Below are positions 1 through 52,080 of a stretch of DNA of 64,000 nucleotides, one piece after another; the stretch's first letter is position 1, and the number at the start of each line of letters is the position of its first letter. This DNA is from Ahaetulla prasina. Its lineage: Eukaryota; Chordata; Lepidosauria; Squamata; Colubridae. A program made the position numbers and the translations under genes. Under the pieces are notes generated by a model. The model was not told the origin of the DNA and did not search any database. It was given only the letters and a program-made list of their open reading frames with translations. Location of the stretch: assembly GCF_028640845.1 (NCBI RefSeq), contig NC_080541.1:4726435-4790434 (forward strand). Direction: 5' to 3'.

Positions 1-790
1 ATCAAGGACTCTACAGTCCTCCTCGTCCAACTCACCCCTGCAAACCCCTAGTACTGATGGTGTTACCTAGCTGGATAATGAGAACTCTGCAAGAAAACAA
101 TCAAGCTCAGAGAACACCAAGGACCCCCCAATTTATTTCCTCCTCCTCCTCCTCCTCCTCCTCCTCCTCCTCCTCCTCCTCCTCCTCCTCCTCCTCCTCC
201 TCCTCCTCCTCCTCCTCCCAAACCCCATTCCCTTCTAGCACTGATGATGTTACCTAGTTGGATAATGAGACATCTGCAAACAACCAAGCTCAGAGAACAC
301 CAAGGACCCCCCAATTTATTTCCTCCTCCTCCTCCTCCTCCTCCTCCTCCTCCTCCTCCTCCTCCTCCTCCTCCTTCCAAACCCCATTCCCTTCTAGCAC
401 TGATGGTGTTACCTAGCTGGATAATGAGAACTCTGCAAGAAAACAATCAAGCTCAGAGAACACCAAGGATCCCACAATTTATTTCCTCCTCCTCCTCCTC
501 CTCCTCCTCCTCCTCCTCCTCCTCCTCCTCCTCCTCCTCCTCCCAAACCCCATTCCCTTCTAGCACTGATGGTGTTACCTAGCTGGATAATGAGAACTCT
601 GCAAGAAAACAACCAACCTCAGAGAAAACCAAGGATCCCCCCACATTTTTCCTCCTCCTCCTCCTCCTCCCTGCAGACCTCTAGCACTAGTAGTATTACC
701 TAGCTGGATAATGAAACATCTGCAAGAAAACAACCAAATCAGAGGGCCATAAGGACCCCACAGTTCAACCCTGAACTACAAATATTCTCT
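1..790 (+). repeat. TCC-rich minisatellite array (hammerhead-like family), about 4-5 units
   Basis: Units of about 170 bp repeat head to tail. Each has a conserved block (TTCTAGCACTGATG, then GTTACCTAG, GGATAATGA, TCTGCAAGAAAACAA and CTCAGAGAACACCAAGGA) followed by a pure TCC run at 138-219, 321-375, 484-543 and about 648-672. The block has the layout of a hammerhead ribozyme core, but here it is eroded (CTGATGG or CTAGTAG instead of CTGATGA, GAGA instead of GAAA). Apparent poly-Ser or poly-Gly ORFs are only TCC translation. The same family recurs at 3.5, 4.4-5.7, 12.7-13.2, 40.6, 41.1, 42.5, 44.4 and 62.3 kb. Confidence 0.85.
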
Positions 791-4439: not shown

Positions 4440-5720
4440 GGAGAAAACTCCGCACTCCCTGATTATGTTACCTAGTTAGGTTGTAAAACGTCTGCAACCC
4501 ATATTATCAAGCTCAGAGAGCACCAAGAAGCCCTGTTTTCCCCCTCTTCCTCCTCTTCCCCTCTTCTTCTTCCTCCTCCTATTCTTCTCTGCAAACCCCA
4601 CTTCCTTCTAGCACAGATGTACCAAGAATCTTATAGTCATTCTCCTCCTCCTCCTCCTCTTCCTCCTCCTCCTCCTCCTCCTCTCCTCCTCTTCCCCTCT
4701 TCTTCCTCCTCCTCTTCTCTGCAAACCCCACTTCCTTCTAGCACTGATGCACCAAGAACTCCATAGTCATTCTCTTCCTCCTCCTCCTCTTCCACTTCCT
4801 CCTCCTCTCTTCCTCTTCCTCCCACTCTTCCTCCTCTTCCCCCTCCTCTCTGCAAAACCCACTTCCTTCTAGCACTGATGCACCAAGAACCTTGTAGTCA
4901 TTCTCCTCCTCCTCCTCCTCCTCCTTCTCCTCTTCCCCTCTTCTTCCTCCTCCTCTTCTCTGCAAACCCCACTTCCTTCTAGCACTGATGCACCAAGAAC
5001 CCCATAGTCATTTGCCTCTTCCACTTCCTCCTCCACTTCTTCCTCCTCTCTTCCTCTTCCTCCCCTCTTCCTCCTCTTCCCCCTCCTCTCTGCTACCCCC
5101 CCCTCCTTCTTGCACTGCTGCACCAAGAACTCCATAGTCATTCGCCTCTTCCACTTCCTCCTCCACTTCCTCCTCCTCTCCTCTTCCTCCCCCTCTTCCT
5201 CCTTTTCCCCCTCCTCTCTGCAAACCCCACTTCCTTCTAGCACTGATGCACCAAGAACCCCATAGTCATTTGCCTCTTCCACTTCCTCCTCCACTTCCTC
5301 CTCCTTTCTTCCTCTTCCTCCCCTCTTCCTCCTCTTCCCCCTCCTCTCTGCAAACCCCACTTCCTTCTAGCACTGATGCACCAAGAACTCCATAGTCATT
5401 CTCCTCCTCTTCCTCCTCCACTTCCTCCTCTCTTCCTCTTCCTCCCCTCTTCCTCCTCTTCCCCTCCTCTCTGCAAACCCCACTTCCTTCTAGCACTGAT
5501 GCACCAAGAACCCCATAGTCATTTGCCTCTTCCACTTCCTCCTCCACTTCCTCCTCTCTTCCTCTTCCTCCCCTCTTCCTCCTCTTCCCCCTCCTCTCTG
5601 CAAACCCCACTTCCTTCTAGCACTGATGCACCAAGAACCCCATAGTCATCCTCCTCCTCCTCCTCCTCCTCCTCCTTCTCCTCCTCCTCCTCCTCCTCCT
5701 CCACCACCACCACCATCATA
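4440..5720 (+). repeat. CT-rich minisatellite, about 9 units of about 125 bp
   Basis: The first unit (about 4458-4540) keeps the longer family form with GTTACCTAGTTAGG and AAAACGTCTGCAA. Later units are shortened: TTCTAGCACTGATG runs directly into CACCAAGAAC, so the ribozyme-like core is gone. Unit starts are near 4612, 4741, 4878, 4982, 5114, 5240, 5370, 5494 and 5620. Each unit then has a variable TCC/TTCC tract, and the array ends in TCC plus CAC runs at 5648-5715. The Glu/Arg/Lys ORFs on the minus strand are translations of the tract. Confidence 0.85.
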
Positions 5721-8046: not shown

Positions 8047-8425
8047 TCCATTCCCCCACCATCCTGTCAGAGCTGAAGAAGTTTCTTGGATGAGAAGTGA
8101 AATGTCTTCAAAAGAAAAAAAACAAGGAAGTCCAGTTGCCTCTTGAAAAAAAGCACCTTTGGGACAACCATGACCTGGATGACTGAGAATCTCTACAGAC
8201 TTTTAGCTATGCAATTTGGGATGAACACCCTTCAAATGGTGTGGGAGTAGGAATGGATTTCCAGAGGGAAAAAAAAAGCAGACTACAGGAACCATTTTCA
8301 CCACTCAGGTGACCCTGAGGACACAGATAAGCCTCCAAGCAGCCTCAATGACCCTCTAAAAGGATGCAAATGACCATCTGTCTGCAAGGAATATAAATCC
8401 TTCCCTTCCCCACCATAGTTCTTGG
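8047..8425 (+). mobile_element. Penelope-like element terminal repeats (non-coding)
   Basis: Blocks CATCCTGTCAGAGCTGAAGA, GAAATGTCTTCAAAAG and GGAAGTCCAGTTGCCTCTTG match the non-coding end of the PLE at 14.5 kb. A second block (8281-8410) repeats the CACTCAGGTGACCCTGA to CAAGGAATATAAATCC part. The block order fits the tandem terminal-repeat structure of PLEs. A hammerhead-like core lies at 8073-8106. Confidence 0.7.
8073..8106 (+). ncRNA. Hammerhead ribozyme-like core in PLE repeat
   Basis: CTGAAGA (8073-8079; consensus CUGANGA) is followed by a hairpin in which GTTTCT (8081-8086) pairs with AGAAGT (8093-8098) around loop TGGATG. GAAATGTC (8099-8106) follows, fitting the GAAA plus UH cleavage segment (GUC). 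Stem III would be only AU/GU, as in minimal type-I hammerheads that work as dimers. Stem I is weak: three pairs, one of them a wobble. Hammerheads are reported in PLE terminal repeats. Activity is not shown. Confidence 0.5.
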
Positions 8426-10957: not shown

Positions 10958-12033
10958 TGTTGTGGTCTGCCAGCAACCTGCAGAGCTGGCAGCGGAGTCG
11001 GACAATGAGGAGACTGGGGAGGACAATGGGCCAGTCTTGGAGTCAGGGGAAGACCTGGATGAGGGCTCTGCATCGGAGGCAGAGATGGGGCCAGGGCCAT
11101 CGGGGAGTGATGTGCAGATTCTGGAGCCTCTAGAGCAGCGGTTCTCAACCTGTGGGTCGCGACCCCGTTGGGGGTCAAATGACGATTTGCCAGGGGTCAC
11201 CTAAGACCATCGGAAATATGGGAAGTATACTTGCGAGTCAAAGAATCGCGCTCCAATGGTTGACTCCACAAGCCAGCTGCAGGCTCTTCAAATCGCTAGC
11301 CGAATTCGGCTTCAGGCGCGATGAATTAAAAAAGAGAGAAATCTTTGCTCTGATGTCTCCCTCTCAAGCCAGCTGCAATCACTCCCAATCTCTAGCCTAA
11401 TCTGGCTTCAGGCGTGATAAAGTTAACAGGGGAGGAGTCTCCGCTTTAATGCCTCCGTCCTCAAGGCAATCGCAAGCAGTTCAGATCACTAGCCAATACG
11501 GCTTCAGGCGCGATAAATTCAAAACGAAAATAATTTTATGGTTGGGGTCGCCACATCATGGGGAATTGTATTAAAGGGGTCGCAGCACTATAAAGGTTGA
11601 GAACCACTGCTCTAGAGGCTAACAGCAGAGAGGCAGGGGAACAGGAGGAGCCTGTTCCTAGTGTATGCATGTGAAGAGCTGCCAGAAGGCAAGAGCAGCT
11701 AAAGCAAAAAGGACAACTTAGGGGTAAGGCCAGGAGATGATTGCCCTCTCCCATAAGGCTTAAAATAGCAGCAATGGCTCTTTGGCTCTTTGTAGGAAAG
11801 CAACGTTGCTACATCTGTTTTGACTCAGTGTCTCTTGTTTCTGAAAGGCCTTTGGCAGGGTGCCAAAGAAGATAAAGGTTTGTGCTAAACTCGAAGGACT
11901 TTTTCTGAAGGACTTGTTTTGGAATTAATTTGGACTAAGCTGAGAATGAAGTAATTCTCAGCTGTTCTAATAAAATATGTTTGTTTAGGACTGATTGTGT
12001 CTGGTAATAACTACTTGGGCCTTAGTCACAACA
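10958..12033 (+). mobile_element. Solo LTR (copy G), interrupted by a hAT element
   Basis: It starts TGTTGTGGTC and ends AGTCACAACA, with perfect 5-bp duplications GGGGT at 10953-10957 and 12034-12038. From the edge a frame is open from 10959 into the insertion. It is acidic (AAESDNEETGEDNGP, EGSASEAEMGPGPSGSD) and parallels copy H. After the insertion the remainder (EEPVPS-like) continues. A TATA-like GGCTTAAAATAG lies at about 11757 and AATAAA at about 11970. Without the insert it is about 594 bp. Confidence 0.9.
11136..11609. mobile_element. SPIN-like non-autonomous hAT transposon
   Basis: A 474-bp element with inverted ends CAGCGGTTCTCAACCTGTGG and GGTTGAGAACCACTG. Perfect 8-bp target duplications CTCTAGAG lie at 11128-11135 and 11610-11617. 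Subterminal blocks GTCGCGACCCC, CACCTAAGACCATCGGAAA and AATAATTTTATGGTTGGGG match what I know of SPIN/OposCharlie-type hAT elements. The middle holds about three diverged 85-100-bp tandem units around GGCTTCAGGCGCGAT (about 11312, 11409 and 11503). No transposase is present. Confidence 0.85.
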
Positions 12034-12355: not shown

Positions 12356-12712
12356 GATTAAGAATTCCAGCAAGATGAAAATCATGGAATCCAATGGAGG
12401 GAGTTTGCTGTCCCTTCAATTTAAAACATCCGCCATCATTTCTGACCAACAGAAAGACCTAAACCCCAAAACATGGTCATAAAAATGAAAACAGAGCAAT
12501 GACTCTACAAACAGTGAAGATTCATACATTATAGTCAGGATTTTAAAGAATTTAAAATTACCATTACCAATTACCATCAGCTATCTGAAAGTTCAGCATT
12601 ATGCTAAGCCAAGAATTGCTCCAACATATTTTCACTTTCCTTTGTATGAACTAAACTGAATGAGCAGAGACAGTAACACACCATTCAACAACGACCATCA
12701 AGAAGTCAATTT
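12356..12712. other. No recognised feature
   Basis: Nothing identified. Confidence 0.4.
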
Positions 12713-13175
12713 CCTTAGTAGCACTGATGGTATTACCTAATTGAGTAATGAAATGTCTACAAGAAAACAAGCTCAGAGACCACCAAGGACCCCACAGTTG
12801 TCATCGTCCTCCTCCTCCTCCTCCTCTTCCTCCTCCTCCTCCTCTCCACAAATCCCATTCTTTTCTAGTACTGATGACATTAACTAGTTGGGTCATAAAA
12901 TATGTTCAAGAAACAACCAAGTCAGAGACCACCAAGGAACCCACAGCCGCCATCCTCCTCCTCCTCCTCCTCCTCCTCCTCCTCCTCCTCCTCCTCCTCC
13001 TCCTCCTCCTCCTCCTCCTCCTCCTCCTCCTCCTCCTCCTCTCCACAAACTCCTCTCCTTTCTAGCACTGATGATGTTACCTAGTTCGGTCATGAAATGT
13101 CTGCAAGAAAACAACCAAGTTCAGAGAGCACCAAGGACCCCTCACTTCAACCCCAAGCTCCAAGTATCTCTTTGA
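12713..13175 (+). repeat. TCC minisatellite with hammerhead-like cores, three units
   Basis: Units have core blocks at about 12722, 12868 and 13068, separated by TCC tracts (12808-12842 and 12955-13041). The third unit has the best-kept core in the window. Flanks (GCAAGAAAACAACCAAG, CAGAGAGCACCAAGGACC) match the other arrays of this family. Confidence 0.85.
13068..13101 (+). ncRNA. Hammerhead ribozyme-like core in TCC minisatellite
   Basis: All conserved segments are present in order: CTGATGA (13068-13074), a stem II hairpin (GTTACC at 13076-13081 against GGTCAT at 13088-13093, one mismatch and one wobble) and GAAATGTC (13094-13101), giving GAAA and a GUC cleavage triplet. Stem I is strong: TTTCT-A-GCA (13059-13067) pairs with TGC-A-AGAAA (13102-13110), eight of nine positions. 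Stem III is only AU/GU, suggesting dimeric action. The family ancestor was probably GAAACGTC. The call is structural inference. Confidence 0.55.
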
Positions 13176-13555
13176 TCAGCGAGCGGAGAACAACCATGGG
13201 GCTTCATTTCAAATAACAATGGAGTGGTTCCCATATCTACAGAAATGTTGCATCTCCAGAAAAACGATTTTACTTTACGTGCAAGTTAAAAGCGTTCCTA
13301 AATTTATGAAGAACTGCACACGACGTGAGTTGTCTGCCTGATTCACTGTTGATGTGGGCGATCAGTTTTGGAATTCTAGAAGCGTCATCATAGAATCATT
13401 GCGTAGAGAAAAGTCACTGAGGTCACGAATCCACCTCCTGCTCATTTGGAGAAATGCAAATTAAAGGCTCTGCAACAGATGGCTGTCCCATGTCCACTTC
13501 GGGAAAAACCTTCATAAAATAATCCCCCCCATCCCCGCAAAATCAATTTCACACT
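13176..13555. other. No recognised feature
   Basis: Unique-looking; no gene or repeat family identified. Confidence 0.4.
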
Positions 13556-13560
13556 GCAGG

Positions 13561-13772
13561 TTCTTCTTCTTCTTCTTCTTCTTCTTCTTCTTCTTCTTCT
13601 TCTTCTTCTTCTTCTTCTTCTTCTTCTTCTTCTTCTTCTTCTTCTTCTCCTCCTCCTCCTCCTCCTCCTCCTCCTCCTTCTCCTTCTTCTTTTTCTCCCC
13701 CTCCTCCTCCTCCTCCTCCTCCTCCTCCTCCTCCTCCTCCTCCTCCTCCTCCTCCTCCTCCTCCTCCTCCTC
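13561..13772. repeat. (TTC)n-(TCC)n microsatellite
   Basis: About 212 bp of pure TTC (13561-13647) passing into TCC with a short mixed break near 13680. All three minus-strand frames stay open (poly-Arg/Glu/Lys/Gly), which is not coding. Confidence 0.97.
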
Positions 13773-13821
13773 CCACAAAACATCCAGACACATCGAGAAT
13801 CCAAATCCAAATCCAAAATCA

Positions 13822-14495: not shown

Positions 14496-15190
14496 CAACT
14501 GGACTTTCTGTTTTTTTCTTTGAAGATGTTTCCCTTCTCCTCCAAGGAGCTTCTTCAGCCCTGACTGGATGGTGGGGAATGGAAGGATTTATACTCCTTG
14601 CAGACAGCTGGTCATTTGCATCCTTTTAGCGGGATGTTAAGGTCGCCTGGAGGTTTACCTGTATCATCAGGCTCACCTGAGTGGTGCAAATGGGTGTGGA
14701 GCCTTCTTGGAACTGTTGAAAGGACTGTGCTGTAGATTGGAGATAGATGATGCCGTATCCCTCCTTCTCTGTGGAGAGAGGGCTGTTCAACTTTGACCTA
14801 GATGGCCTCTCTGACCCCGCTTTCAAACTAGTGGTCTTTGGCCAAAATGTAGACTTTGCTGTCTTCAAAAGAGTGGCCTTTGTCTTTTAAATGCAGATGG
14901 ACTGCTGAATCTAGTCCTGATGTCTTTGTTCTCCTATGTTGTGCCATGTGTTTGTGAAGTGGTTGTTTTGTTTCCCCAATGTACAGATCTGCACATGGCT
15001 CACTGCATTGTACTACATATACCACATTGCTCAGTTTCTATCTGGGTGTTTTCTCCTTGGGATGGATGAGCTTCTGCCTTATTGTATTCTTGGGTTTGAA
15101 GTGTGCACGTATGTTGTGTTGCCTGAAGACCCTCCTGAGCTTTTTCGATATGCCTGCAACGTACAGAATGACAACGTTGCTTCATATATT
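14496..15190 (-). pseudogene. Penelope-like element C-terminus with GIY-YIG endonuclease remnant
   Basis: Minus-strand frames encode the end of a PLE protein: a segment with SKKLRRVFRQHNI, then LSNVVYVVQCSEPCADLYIG (GIY-YIG nuclease start with the paired cysteines typical of PLE nucleases), LYIGETKQPLHKHMAQHRR and AVHLHLKDKGHSFEDSKV, whose His residues fit a CCHH zinc site. A stop or frameshift follows near 14828. A second frame (about 14868-14626) continues toward SLHREGGIRHHL-type residues. The non-coding end with a ribozyme-like core follows. The reverse transcriptase part is missing, so the copy is dead. Confidence 0.8.
14525..14558 (-). ncRNA. Hammerhead ribozyme-like core in PLE (minus strand)
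   Basis: On the minus strand: CTGAAGA (14558-14552), a hairpin around CTCCTTGGAGGAG, then GAAACATC (14532-14525). GAAACATC is the expected product of CpG decay of GAAACGTC. The GUC triplet is changed to AUC, so U before the cleavage base is kept but stem III is weaker. Confidence 0.42.
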
Positions 15191-17244: not shown

Positions 17245-17395
17245 TATAGAGATTCTCAGTCATTCAGGTCCTAGTTGTCCCAAAGGTGCTTTTTCAAGAG
17301 GCAACTGGTGAAGAAACTTCTTGGATGAAGAGCAAAACATCTTCAAAGAAAAACGAGGAAGTCCAGTTGTCTCTTGAGAACGTATCTCACTTCCT
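17245..17395 (+). mobile_element. PLE non-coding fragment
   Basis: Contains GAGATTCTCAGTCATTCAGG, CTTCTTGGATGAAGAGCAAA and CATCTTCAAAGAAAAACGAGG. The ribozyme-like core is degraded (CTGGTGAAGA, CAAAACATC). Confidence 0.65.
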
Positions 17396-33494: not shown

Positions 33495-33706
33495 TAGGTA
33501 GCTTCTTCTTTCTTTCTTTTCTTTTTTACAATTCGCAGGGGGAAAAAATTGCAATGCCGTCGGAGCATCTGTCTACTCAAAGGCTGAATTTAGTCAGCCT
33601 TTCTCCAAAGAAACACGTGTGGGATTTCAGATATATGAAATGTGGATTATATATGTTCCTGTTATGGTTATGGAGCCTGCTTGGTCCGGTGAATAAGGCT
33701 CTAAAC

Positions 33707-39847: not shown

Positions 39848-40495
39848 GCCGTTTAAAGTCTGGACTATTGCAATGCTGTCTACATGGAGCTTCCCTTGAA
39901 GAGCACCCAAAGACTCCAATTAGTTCAGAATGCGGCCGCGCGGGTGATAGAGGGAGTGACTCGTTGCTCCCATATAACACCTCTCCTGCGCAGGCTGCAC
40001 TGGCTTCCGGTGGTCTTTCGGGTGCAATTCAAGGTGTTAGTTACCACCTTTAAAGCGCTCCATGGCATAGGACCGGGTTACTTATGGGACCGCCTGCTGC
40101 TACCGGCGATCTCCCATCGACCAGTGTGCTCCCATAGGGAGGTTCTCCTCAGGGTGCCGTCGGCCAGTCAATGTCAGCTGGCGGCGCCCAGGGGGAGGGC
40201 CTTCTCTGTGGGGGCACCAACCCTCTGTAACCAAGTTACCATCAGGTATCCGTCAACTCCCTGATCTTCGGACCTTTCGACGCAAGCTGAAAACATTTTT
40301 GTTTCACCGTGCAGGACTGGCCTAGTGGGGTTTTAATAAGGGGGTTTTATTGGTTTTAAGTTCTTCAACCAACTCTAAATTTTCCTTTTAAACTGGTTTT
40401 AAAAATTGTACTAATTGTTTTTAACTTTGGCTGTAAACCGCCCTGAGTCCTTTGGGAGAAGGGCGGTATAGAAATTGAAACAATAAATAAATAAC
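39848..40495 (+). pseudogene. L2-like LINE (copy L2a)
   Basis: Frame 39884-40264: TQRLQLVQNAAARVIEG, LLRRLHWLPVVFRVQFKVLV, APRGRAFSVGAPTLCNQV. It diverges from the family after CCAACCCTCTGTAACC. 3' UTR CTGTAAACCGCCCTGAGTCC, tail ATAAATAAATAA. Its 3' half is the same sequence as 42098-42370. Confidence 0.87.
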
Positions 40496-40589
40496 TAAAT
40501 AAATAATGATCTTCTGCTCCTGTGTTGTAATGTGGACTGGGTTCTTGGGAAGTACGGGTGCATTCCAGAGGAGCAAGAGACAACTCAGT

Positions 40590-40755
40590 TCAAGTACTTT
40601 GGGGTCTTTGATGCTCTCTGAGCTTGGTTGTTTTCTTGCAGACATTTCATTACCCAACTAGGGAATATCTTCAGTGCTAGAAGGGAATGGGGTTTGCTCT
40701 CTTTTTATATACTATTGGCTTACCCTGCCAGAGTTGATGGGAGTATCTTACATCT
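40590..40755 (-). repeat. Hammerhead-like repeat unit, inverted
   Basis: Minus-strand order: CATTCCCTTCTAGCA, CTGAAGA (40674-40668), hairpin CCCTAGTTGGG, GAAATGTC (40648-40641), TGCAAGAAAACAACCAAGCT. Stem I pairs as at 13068. Identical copy at 42465. Confidence 0.75.
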
Positions 40756-40854
40756 ACATCTATATCTATATCATCTATATCTATATCTATCTATATCTGT
40801 ATCTGTATCTATATCTCTAATCTATCTATCTATCTATCATCTATCGATCTATCG

Positions 40855-40948
<94 letters not shown>

Positions 40949-41060
40949 ATCTATCTATATGTCATATCTATCAATGTCATATATCTACCTATCTCTATTT
41001 TCTGTCTATCGTACGTACGTATGTATGTATGAATGTATTTTTCTCTCTCTCTCTCTCAAA
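40756..41060. repeat. (TATC)n microsatellite
   Basis: About 290 bp of CTAT/TATC with TATATC, TCGATC and TACG variants. Confidence 0.96.
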
Positions 41061-41089
41061 CCAACCTTGACAGGACAAGCCAGTAGTAT

Positions 41090-41167
41090 ATCAAAAACAG
41101 AAAACCCCACTCTCTTCTAGAACTGGAGATGTTACCCAGATGAATGATGAAACATCTGGAAGAATCC
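41090..41167 (+). repeat. Degraded hammerhead-family unit
   Basis: CTCTTCTAGAACTGGAGATG, GTTACCCAGATGAATGATGA, AACATCTGGAAGAATCC. Core eroded. LTR B is inserted at its end. Confidence 0.6.
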
Positions 41168-41685
41168 TGTCGTGTCCCACTCCTCCGCTGACGGCCAGGT
41201 CAGGGAAATCCGAATCAGGCGTGCCTCTGCAGCTCTGCCCAAAGTCCTAGCAAAGTCCTCAGAGCAGGCAGGAGACCAGTAAGTGACTTCAGCAAGATAA
41301 GTTCGACTTTGCCTGACTCAGAGACTGCCAGAAAGCAGATCCTTTATATAGGCCATGGGGTGTGGCTCCATGACTCAGCACTCATTAAGGCCTGCCCCTC
41401 CCTTCCTTCTGTTGCCTCCGCCTATCCAATCTTCTGATGCGAGGGTCACTCCAATCAGCTGTTGGAAGTAAACTTTCCTCAGGCTCACATGCTGTGGAGG
41501 AGGGGGAGGGGTCTAGCTGCTCGGTTTGCCTGGGCATGGAGCCAGGGCTGGGACCGGGGGATGCTCCCTCCTCTGCAGCCTGCTTGGGCATGGAGCCAGG
41601 GCTGGGACCGGGAGGCATACATTCCTCCGTGTTCGGGAGCAGATAAGCAAACACCGGCTGCGGTGAGAGCGGACAAGACACAACA
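41168..41685 (-). mobile_element. Solo LTR (copy B)
   Basis: 518 bp; minus-strand start TGTTGTGTCTTG, end GACACGACA; perfect AATCC duplications at 41163-41167 and 41686-41690. TATA box and the edge frame (100 codons to 41385, ending RRRQQKEGRGRP) as in copy A, with one fewer PGPSPGSMP repeat. Confidence 0.92.
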
Positions 41686-41690
41686 AATCC

Positions 41691-42370
41691 AGTTGCATCC
41701 CTTCCTGGACCGGGATGCCCTATGCACGGTCACTCAGGCTCTCGTTACCTCTCGTCTGGACTACTGCAATGCTCGCTACATGGGGCTCCCTTGAAGAGCA
41801 CCGGAGACTTCAGCTAGTCCAGAATGCGGCTGTGGGTTATTGAGGGCGGTTGGAGCTCCCGTAACACCTATCCTGCGCAGACTGCACTGGCCACCTGTCG
41901 TTTTCCGGGTGCGCTTCAAGGTATTGGTTACCACCTTTAAAGCGCTCCATGGCTTAGGACCGGGCTACTTATGGGACCGCCTACTGCCGGCCTCTATCTC
42001 CCAGCGTCCGGTGCGTTCCCACAGAGAGGGACTCCTCAGGGTGCCGTCAGCCAAACAATGTCGACTGGCGGCCCCAGGGGAGGGCCTTCTGTGGGGCACC
42101 AACCCTCTGTAACCAAGTTACCATCAGGTATCCGTCAACTCCCTGATCTTCGGACCTTTCGACGCAAGCGGAAAACATTTCTATTTCACCGTGCAGGACT
42201 GGTCTAGTGGGGTTTTAATAAGGGGTTTTATTGGTTTTAAGTTCTTCAACCAACTCTAAATTTTCCTTTTAAACTGGTTTTAAAATTGTACTAATTGTTT
42301 TTACTTTGGCTGTAAACTGCCCTGAGTCCTTTGGGAGAAGGGCGGTATAGAAATTGAAACAATAAATAAA
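41691..42370 (+). pseudogene. Chimeric L2-like LINE at a duplication junction
   Basis: 41691-42075 matches L2b (43533-43925) apart from many single-base losses in homopolymers; 42098-42370 matches L2a (40225-40495). The switch lies in the shared GGGAGGGCCTTCTNTGTGGG block. The frame is broken several times. Confidence 0.85.
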
Positions 42371-42382
42371 TAAAATAAATAA

Positions 42383-42722
42383 TGATCTTCTGCTCCTGTG
42401 TTGTAATGTGGACTGGGTTCTTGGGAAGTACGGGTGCATTCCAGAGGAGCAAGAGACAACTCAGTTCAAGTACTTTGGGGTCTTTGATGCTCTCTGAGCT
42501 TGGTTGTTTTCTTGCAGACATTTCATTACCCAACTAGGGAATATCTTCAGTGCTAGAAGGGAATGGGGTTTGCTCTCTTTTTATATACTATTGGCTTACC
42601 CTGCCAGAGTTGATGGGAGTATCTTACATCTACATCTATATCTATATCATCTATATCTATATCTATCTATATCTGTATCTGTATCTATATCTCTAATCTA
42701 TCTATCTATCTATCATCTATCG

Positions 42723-42790
<68 letters not shown>

Positions 42791-43009
42791 ATCTATCTAT
42801 ATGTCATATCTATCAATGTCATATATCTACCTATCTCTATTTTCTGTCTATCGTACGTACGTATGTATGTATGAATGTATTTTTCTCTCTCTCTCTCTCA
42901 AACCAACCTTGACAGGACAAGCCAGTAGTATATCAAAAACAGAAAACCCCACTCTCTTCTAGAACTGGAGATGTTACCCAGATGAATGATGAAACATCTG
43001 GAAGAATCC
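42383..43009. repeat. Second copy of hammerhead unit, (TATC)n and flank
   Basis: Copy of 40507-41167, essentially identical outside the TATC run, which is about 34 bp shorter. Ribozyme-like core on the minus strand at 42550-42517. Confidence 0.93.
42517..42550 (-). ncRNA. Hammerhead ribozyme-like core (minus strand)
   Basis: CTGAAGA (42550-42544), stem II region ending GTTGGGTAAT, GAAATGTC (42524-42517). Stem I: TTCT-A-GCA against TGC-A-AGAA, as at 13068. Stem II has mismatches (TATTCCC against GGGTAAT). Confidence 0.42.
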
Positions 43010-51793: not shown

Positions 51794-52080
51794 GTGGAAG
51801 TCCCAAAGATGCTCTTTCAGGAGGCAACTGAACTTTCTTGTTGTTGTTTTTTCTTTGAAGACGTTTCGCTTCTTCAATCATTACCAGCTGTTTGCAAGGA
51901 ATATAAATCCTTCCATTCCCCACTATCATGTCACAGCTGGAGAAGCTTCTTGGATGAAAAGCGACACATCTTCAAAGAAAAAAACAACAACAAGGAAGTC
52001 CAGTTGCCACCTTAAAAAGCACCTTTGGCACAACCATGTCCTGGATAACTGAGAAGCTCTACAGATTTTTGGCCATTGAA
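51794..52080. mobile_element. Two PLE ends in inverted orientation
   Basis: Left half (51797-51880) is the minus-strand form: complement of GAAACGTCTTCAAAGAAAAA, with GAAACGTC intact at 51867-51860. Right half (51895-52075) is plus: CTTCTTGGATGAAAAGCGAC, AGGAAGTCCAGTTGCCACC, TCCTGGATAACTGAGAAGC. Together they form a fold-back. Confidence 0.72.

Follow-up and report, generated by a model that had tools for sequence, protein, structure and literature searches.

Hammerhead layout and tandem units in the window

The window analyzed here is a 64,000-nucleotide stretch of the genome of the snake Ahaetulla prasina (C3:4726435-4790434; genome-wide counts refer to the same 1.77 Gb assembly). It contains a hammerhead ribozyme layout at 13059-13110, in the last unit of an array (12712-13113) of three repeat units, starting at 12712, 12859 and 13056, which are joined by TCC arrays. 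This repeat is designated type A. The layout probably derives from a Penelope-like element (PLE), from the junction between its 5' repeat (pLTR) and the start of its reading frame.

Direct reading of the letters gives CTGATGA, the stem II hairpin, GAAA and the GUC triplet in exactly the order and spacing described in an initial annotation of this DNA. The pattern CTGATGA-N8..30-GAAANGTC is seen once in the 64-kb window, compared with 0.01 matches expected from shuffles. Stem I is formed by the flanks with 8 of 9 pairs, as was also claimed, and its single mismatch is A/A; the mismatch in stem II, at pair 3, is T/C. Two details are absent from the initial annotation: one base is left unpaired between A9 and stem II, and stem III lacks a loop altogether (GAAA-U-GUC). 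The layout is that of a type-I hammerhead with a minimal stem III, as was proposed. The core CUGANGA ... GAAA ... UH, as in the minimal type-I hammerheads of PLEs, is present in the correct order. The cut is expected after 13101 on the plus strand.

Tandem repetition of the unit with TCC is observed both at 12712-13113 and at 42-611, as the initial annotation proposed for the unit. In the whole window, 22 matches to the unit are found on both strands at E <=0.1, with a model built partly from the same copies, which therefore match by construction. The third-ranked match and some lower ones represent a second type, and the last, at 33572, is borderline (E 0.036). In the genome, 293 places match a 72-base version of the type A unit within three mismatches, and 0 match its reversed control.

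Another array of type A units (4606-5648), located 8 kb from the copy at 13059-13110, lacks the hammerhead. About 55 bases, corresponding to most of the hammerhead, are missing between CTGATG and CACCAAGG. This form is confined to the window: 8 of 8 genome matches within three mismatches are at 4606-5648. The ribozyme-free array reached nine units, which indicates that tandem growth of the repeat is possible without the ribozyme.

Three hammerhead types and their probable relation to Penelope-like elements

Two other hammerhead types have the same spacing as type A, with different letters. Type C (CTGAAGA-A-GCTTCT-TGGATG-AGAAGC-GAAACGTC) is seen at 11,606 places in the genome within three mismatches. 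Type D (CTGAAGA-T-GACGAA-TGAGAC-TTCGTC-GAAACGTC) is represented by four copies on both strands in the examined loci, L070 and L023 among them. Judged from their architecture, and not from a tree, the three types may be kin. For their comparison, 69 copies chosen under mismatch limits were aligned without gaps over 58 columns: 31 of type A (from the window and from loci obtained by a separate pLTR search), 34 of type C and 4 of type D. CTGA, GA, AAA and U16.1, the U preceding the cleavage site, vary little or not at all across these copies.

Stem II shows compensatory changes between the three types. Its cells are paired in 89.6% (69.8% in shuffles), two-sided changes are seen in 104 cells (38.2 in shuffles), and the covariation score is 0.660 (0.281 in shuffles); none of 500 shuffles was as high in any of these measures. 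When the stem II partners are slid, only 35-59% are paired. Stems I and II together are paired in 75.0%, compared with 61.4% in shuffles. Stem I alone is paired in 62.5%. Its two innermost pairs change together across the types, and its outer pairs hold mainly in type A, where stem I is paired in 71.9% with covariation not above shuffles. The initial annotation suggested looking for covariation in the stems. In stem II, it is present between types A, C and D, and it does not exceed shuffles within the 31 type A copies. As the compensatory signal lies between types, it represents few evolutionary events, seen many times.

The type D family provides a link to PLEs. In L070, the type D hammerhead (2718-2760) is about 380 bases after an endonuclease-like frame (1970-2340). 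The frame in another type D copy (L087 with L106) encodes a PLE reverse transcriptase, with stops, and continues in-frame into an endonuclease-like stretch. Its best reverse-transcriptase piece reaches 31.3 bits with RVT_1 (cut-off 29.6), and the best homolog, from Crotalus tigris, shows 95% identity. Among the 120 of 695 homologs listed, many carry PF26215, which we take to be a domain typical of PLEs. A YIGQTN-type motif can be recognized by eye in the frame of L020, which gives no GIY-YIG match with Pfam, and presumably marks the endonuclease piece as GIY-YIG. A genome scan for the Pfam GIY-YIG domain (best 150 of 3,022 candidates) was set aside as evidence for PLEs, as its one match was read as an SLX1-like host exon. 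An endonuclease-like C-terminus, recognized by eye, precedes the type C hammerheads of L062 and L071 and, in the window, the one at 14513-14570.

In type A, the ATG is at A9, the start of stem II, and C3 and G8 precede it. The tail of ordinary copies was found in 11 of 30 loci, and the end of the probe falls 91-99 bases into the frame; among the 11, L021 (at 119) is probably spurious, and L019 and L020 overlap. By eye, the shared sequence of ordinary copies runs to about 100-107 bases into the frame, and inverted partners are seen in several loci. No PLE reverse transcriptase was found attached to type A, and we infer its PLE membership. The motif is real but decayed, and was most likely inherited from a PLE.

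Copies near chromosome ends and other features of the window

The TCC junction ...CACCAAGGACCCCACAGT-CCTCCTCCTCC is found at 772 places in the genome within one mismatch. The ordinary tail form, CACCAAGGACCCCACAGT-TCAACCCTGAGCTAC, is found at 292. The distance to chromosome ends was analyzed for exact junctions on C1-C7 among the first 100 matches listed for each form, merged within 5 kb. Among these matches, 76 of 78 clusters of the TCC form are within 15 Mb of a chromosome end, versus 9 of 35 clusters of the tail form (Fisher p 8e-16). Within 5 Mb, the counts are 59 of 78 versus 5 of 35. The distance cut-offs were picked after seeing the data, and the contrast stands at all four that were tried.

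Type A hammerheads within two mismatches are also concentrated at the ends, with 33 of 34 macrochromosome clusters within 15 Mb of them. The ten small chromosomes, which are 13.9% of the 18-chromosome total, contain 26 of 60 type A hammerhead clusters. This is no peculiarity of the TCC form; by our own count, 16 of 53 exact tail-form places among the matches listed are there too. Two rough comparisons come from our own counts. On C1, 23 of 82 exact type C places are within 15 Mb of its ends (7.9% expected), and so are 5 of 38 macrochromosome matches of the type A pLTR search with respect to their ends (best 40 of 2,075 candidates).

The spacing of the hammerheads has a median of 145 bases (39 spacings under 600) and ranges from 105 to 544. 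The flanks of 30 loci are mostly unrelated, with any similarity in 7 left and 8 right pairs. L006 and L028 are the same DNA on the left and right, and the right flanks of L019 and L020 (98%) are from overlapping stretches of a locally repeated array. One flank is common to L003 and L027 (269 bases, 96%, opposite strands), and one to L004 and L009 (about 320 bases, 80%). Other flank similarities are shorter and look like interspersed repeats. Because the flanks are mostly unrelated, subtelomeric segmental duplication was rejected as the spreader of the arrays. In the literature searched, which left most subscription papers outside, no report was found of a TCC-linked tandem form of a PLE hammerhead or of any squamate, snake or subtelomeric version.

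Table 1. Parts of the hammerhead at 13059-13110 and related features of the window.
Feature	Positions	Strand	Basis or remark
Stem I, 5' strand TTTCTAGCA	13059-13067	+	Read directly; 8/9 pairs with 13102-13110
Catalytic core CTGATGA (C3-A9)	13068-13074	+	Read directly; CTGA and GA nearly invariant in the 69-copy alignment
Extra unpaired T between A9 and stem II	13075	+	Read directly
Stem II hairpin: GTTACC, loop TAGTTC, GGTCAT	13076-13081, 13082-13087, 13088-13093	+	5/6 pairs
GAAA, then TGTC	13094-13097, 13098-13101	+	Loop-less stem III and TC cleavage site
Stem I, 3' strand TGCAAGAAA	13102-13110	+	Read directly
Start-of-frame remnant, 22 codons	13074-13139	+	ATG at A9, MLPSWVMK... in related copies; 16/102 copies with a stop there
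Tail-like sequence as at the ends of ordinary copies	13140-13177	+	By eye, against tails of other loci; marks the last unit of the array
Decayed hammerhead, first unit of array 12712-13113	12712-12769	+	Model search and alignment
Decayed hammerhead, second unit of array 12712-13113	12859-12916	+	Model search and alignment
TCC array joining second and last unit	12953-13041	+	Repeat scan
Four units joined by TCC, each with a decayed hammerhead (42, 229, 388, 554)	42-611	+	
Fifth, divergent copy beside array 42-611	675-732		
Nine tandem type A units, hammerhead deleted	4606-5648	+	Spacing 110-131 bp
Type C hammerhead	14513-14570	-	Downstream of endonuclease-like C-terminus 14615-14815 (-), by eye, one stop inside
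Further type C hammerheads	8061-8118, 17296-17353, 51925-51982	+	

A TTC/CTC microsatellite of 200 bases (13561-13773) is near the hammerhead array and outside it. The window also contains a direct duplication (40200-41200 and 42100-43000) with TATC arrays, and each half has two hammerhead-like copies on opposite strands. A genome scan with the Rfam model RF00163 gave two matches, in L001 and L002 around base 1500, with 34.7 and 34.6 bits (cut-off 34; best 73 of 205,745 candidates). They were rejected as relatives of the repeat at 13059-13110, because both are in a different repeat common to L001 and L002.

Origin of the repeat and comparison with known systems

The explanation that we consider probable is that a PLE-derived junction with a now decayed minimal type-I hammerhead was linked to TCC, dispersed, and then grew as a plain minisatellite. 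The unit would be the junction of the pLTR and the start of the reading frame, bearing the minimal type-I hammerhead of the element. Two such motifs in the RNA of the live element would share a four-base self-complementary stem III (ACGU) and thereby cut it after GUC; alternatively, the cleavage may be assisted by the protein of the element itself. The copy at 13059-13110 would be a fossil: it has AUGU in place of ACGU, which is most simply explained by decay of the CpG, and has lost one pair of stem II. A TCC-linked tandem version of the junction would have arisen, spread to separate sites, most of them close to chromosome ends, and afterwards expanded or contracted in place like any minisatellite.

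Judged from its letters, the hammerhead at 13059-13110 is probably not working. Its core is retained, and its stem III is T-G, while C-G is retained in 40 of 102 copies. Among the 102 copies, many of which stem from a search biased toward well-kept copies, 54 have an intact core, 48 of these also have five or more stem II pairs, 30 the inner stem I in addition, and 21 the C-G as well.

Several observations weigh against this origin from a decayed PLE junction. With regard to the motif itself, the Rfam hammerhead models, including Hammerhead_1 (RF00163), gave no match in the window in gathering and permissive scans, so that the covariance-model check proposed in the initial annotation was negative for this copy. 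At L003, L057, L070 and L023, these models are below the gathering threshold. The models miss the motif because stem III is absent. The columns of G12 and C17 are below 90% in the 69-copy alignment. All 6 of the 6 stem II pairs show two-sided change between types, a count equalled by 25 of 500 shuffles. Within type A alone (31 copies), compensatory change does not rise above shuffles, and all measures are at or close to the shuffle mean (pairing 77.7% and covariation 0.130, both the same in shuffles), although slid partners pair far less (27-47%). Type A by itself thus does not prove the structure. This null result slightly lowered our confidence in the PLE junction and raised that in a chance origin. 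We read it as neutral decay of fossil copies after insertion, as expected. If only type A is considered, two outcomes named in the initial annotation as contrary to its claim are what we observe, and we attribute them to fossil decay and the missing stem III. A C breaking a stem II pair is seen in 36 of 93 distinct type A copies.

Folded as a monomer, neither the unit at 13059-13110 (-8.9 versus -6.8 for the hammerhead) nor L003 (-14.2 versus -5.8) has the hammerhead as its minimum-energy structure. When copies used as search centres are left aside, 46 TCC-linked copies have core mutations at 54 of 552 positions versus 231 of 1748 in the downstream frame (p 0.03), a difference not expected from decay alone. 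The 29 copies without TCC have 49 of 348 versus 161 of 1102 (p 0.86), and all 75 copies pooled give p 0.08. The lower core mutation in TCC-linked copies is a weak signal and no proof of selection.

The remaining points on this side concern the link to PLEs and the chromosome ends. No GIY-YIG match was obtained with Pfam in the type D endonuclease piece, and the C-terminus upstream of type C was recognized by eye alone. No coding region was seen upstream of three type A copies, which share only 180-320 bases of pLTR there; upstream frames were inspected for L034 and L036, and for L035 only around another copy. The tail form is also somewhat enriched at the ends (9 of 35 clusters versus 14.7% expected, among the matches listed), and the end enrichment may be a property of TCC microsatellites as such.

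Alternatively, slippage and unequal crossing over in recombining subtelomeres might have built the TCC-linked arrays locally, site by site, and ready-made arrays would hardly have been dispersed, if at all. This is possible, and we regard it as rather unlikely. It agrees with the contrast between the TCC form, which lies near the chromosome ends, and the scattered single form, and with the presence of the hammerhead-less array at one locus only. The same reasoning has been published for the tail of a short interspersed element (SINE) in Xenopus subtelomeres (PMC10794172; here and below, statements on papers refer to the parts of their text available to us). However, the recurrence of the TCC junction at 772 places within one mismatch can hardly be due to independent origins.

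It is unlikely that the repeat is a live, retrozyme-like self-cleaving minisatellite, whose transcripts would be cut to unit-length RNAs, circularized and copied back into DNA. The hammerheads are in tandem with a median spacing of 145 bases, the array sites have mostly unrelated flanks, and the core of TCC-linked copies is slightly less mutated than the flank. Metazoan retrozymes and tandem minimal hammerheads of axolotl PLEs are also in print (PMC7229834). On the other hand, the spacing between units is widely variable, the copy at 13059-13110 is not among the 21 that retain core, stem II (at least 5 of 6 pairs), inner stem I and C-G, and covariation in type A is not above shuffles. Besides, the nine-unit array grew without a hammerhead, and the monomer folds away from it. 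The self-cleaving minisatellite is not needed to explain the data. What the initial annotation took for an unusual element is, rather, most likely a PLE junction, for which minimal hammerheads are published (PMC6155905, PMC11167929).

Also doubtful is a non-autonomous PLE derivative composed of TCC-linked hammerhead units, which would be mobilized as arrays by the PLE machinery and directed to the ends of snake chromosomes or retained there. If true, it would be a self-cleaving subtelomeric satellite comparable to the Terminons of rotifers, the hammerhead of which exposes telomere-pairing repeats. A chance origin of the hammerhead words as a by-product of coding sequence (ATG...) is very improbable: the motif does overlap the reading frame, the frequent A-to-C exchange that breaks a stem II pair leaves valine unchanged, and type A lacks covariation, but only 0.01 matches are expected per window, and stem II changes are compensatory between types that differ in their stem letters and share a constant core.

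The hammerhead layout is thus true and a decayed member of a published kind, and its TCC-linked tandem form near chromosome ends was not found described in the literature searched. A reading of the raw sequence can detect a true ribozyme layout that Rfam models miss. One snake genome supplies three related hammerhead types, and the differences among these include compensatory changes. A PLE junction tied to an end-concentrated minisatellite is a test case of whether RNA or plain recombination drives tandem ribozyme repeats in such regions. The sister array without the ribozyme speaks for recombination.

Similar to minimal PLE hammerheads, the motif at 13059-13110 is of type I without helix III. 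Minimal PLE hammerheads have been proposed to act as dimers. The terminal repeats of PLEs contain minimal type I hammerheads without helix III, as reported by Cervera and de la Pena in 2014 and cited in PMC6155905, PMC7229834, PMC6431247 and PMC11167929. The available text of these four papers does not describe a TCC-linked subtelomeric tandem form of them.

PAc, a Poseidon PLE of Anolis carolinensis, has a minimal hammerhead, and its frame starts at stem II with C3 and G8 upstream of the ATG (PMC11167929). Type A shares this arrangement, as well as tandem or partial-tandem copies. PAc is cut 26 bases downstream of its start codon, and the type A copy would be cut after base 28 from the A of the ATG. 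Reverse transcription of PAc starts 111-118 into the frame, near which the ordinary type A copies appear to end. The PAc hammerhead was cleaved in vitro only with protein added, and it is dispensable for insertion in vitro (PMC11167929). PAc is expressed and its cleavage protein-assisted, whereas the copy at 13059-13110 is a fragment that has decayed within an array linked by TCC; the likeness is by description.

Metazoan retrozymes and the satellites of newt and axolotl also have type I hammerheads in short tandem repeats of 150-450 bp (PMC7229834, PMC6155905). Helix III is weak in the satellites of these amphibians, which act as dimers, and axolotl PLEs carry minimal hammerheads in tandem (PMC7229834). 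Retrozymes and amphibian satellites have canonical motifs with loop contacts, whereas the snake repeat has a minimal motif and variable microsatellite linkers. It was rejected as a retrozyme with canonical hammerhead units because of the absence of stem III and the spacing of 105-544.

The Terminons of bdelloid rotifers are relatives of PLEs with hammerheads at chromosome ends (PMC6431247). They have 3' telomeric repeats and are attached to chromosome termini, whereas the snake arrays are up to megabases inside. The tail of the Xenopus SINE/tRNA-V is likewise a piece of a dispersed retroelement expanded as a minisatellite, in subtelomeres only; it is a SINE tail in a frog, and the available text mentions no ribozyme (PMC10794172). 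Snake long interspersed elements (LINEs) seed microsatellites, as retroelement ends bear microsatellites that multiply, and AATAG-type repeats, abundant in the window, are expanded in colubroid snakes (PMC6050309). The snake LINEs have AATAG at their ends, whereas the type A repeat has TCC between its junction units.
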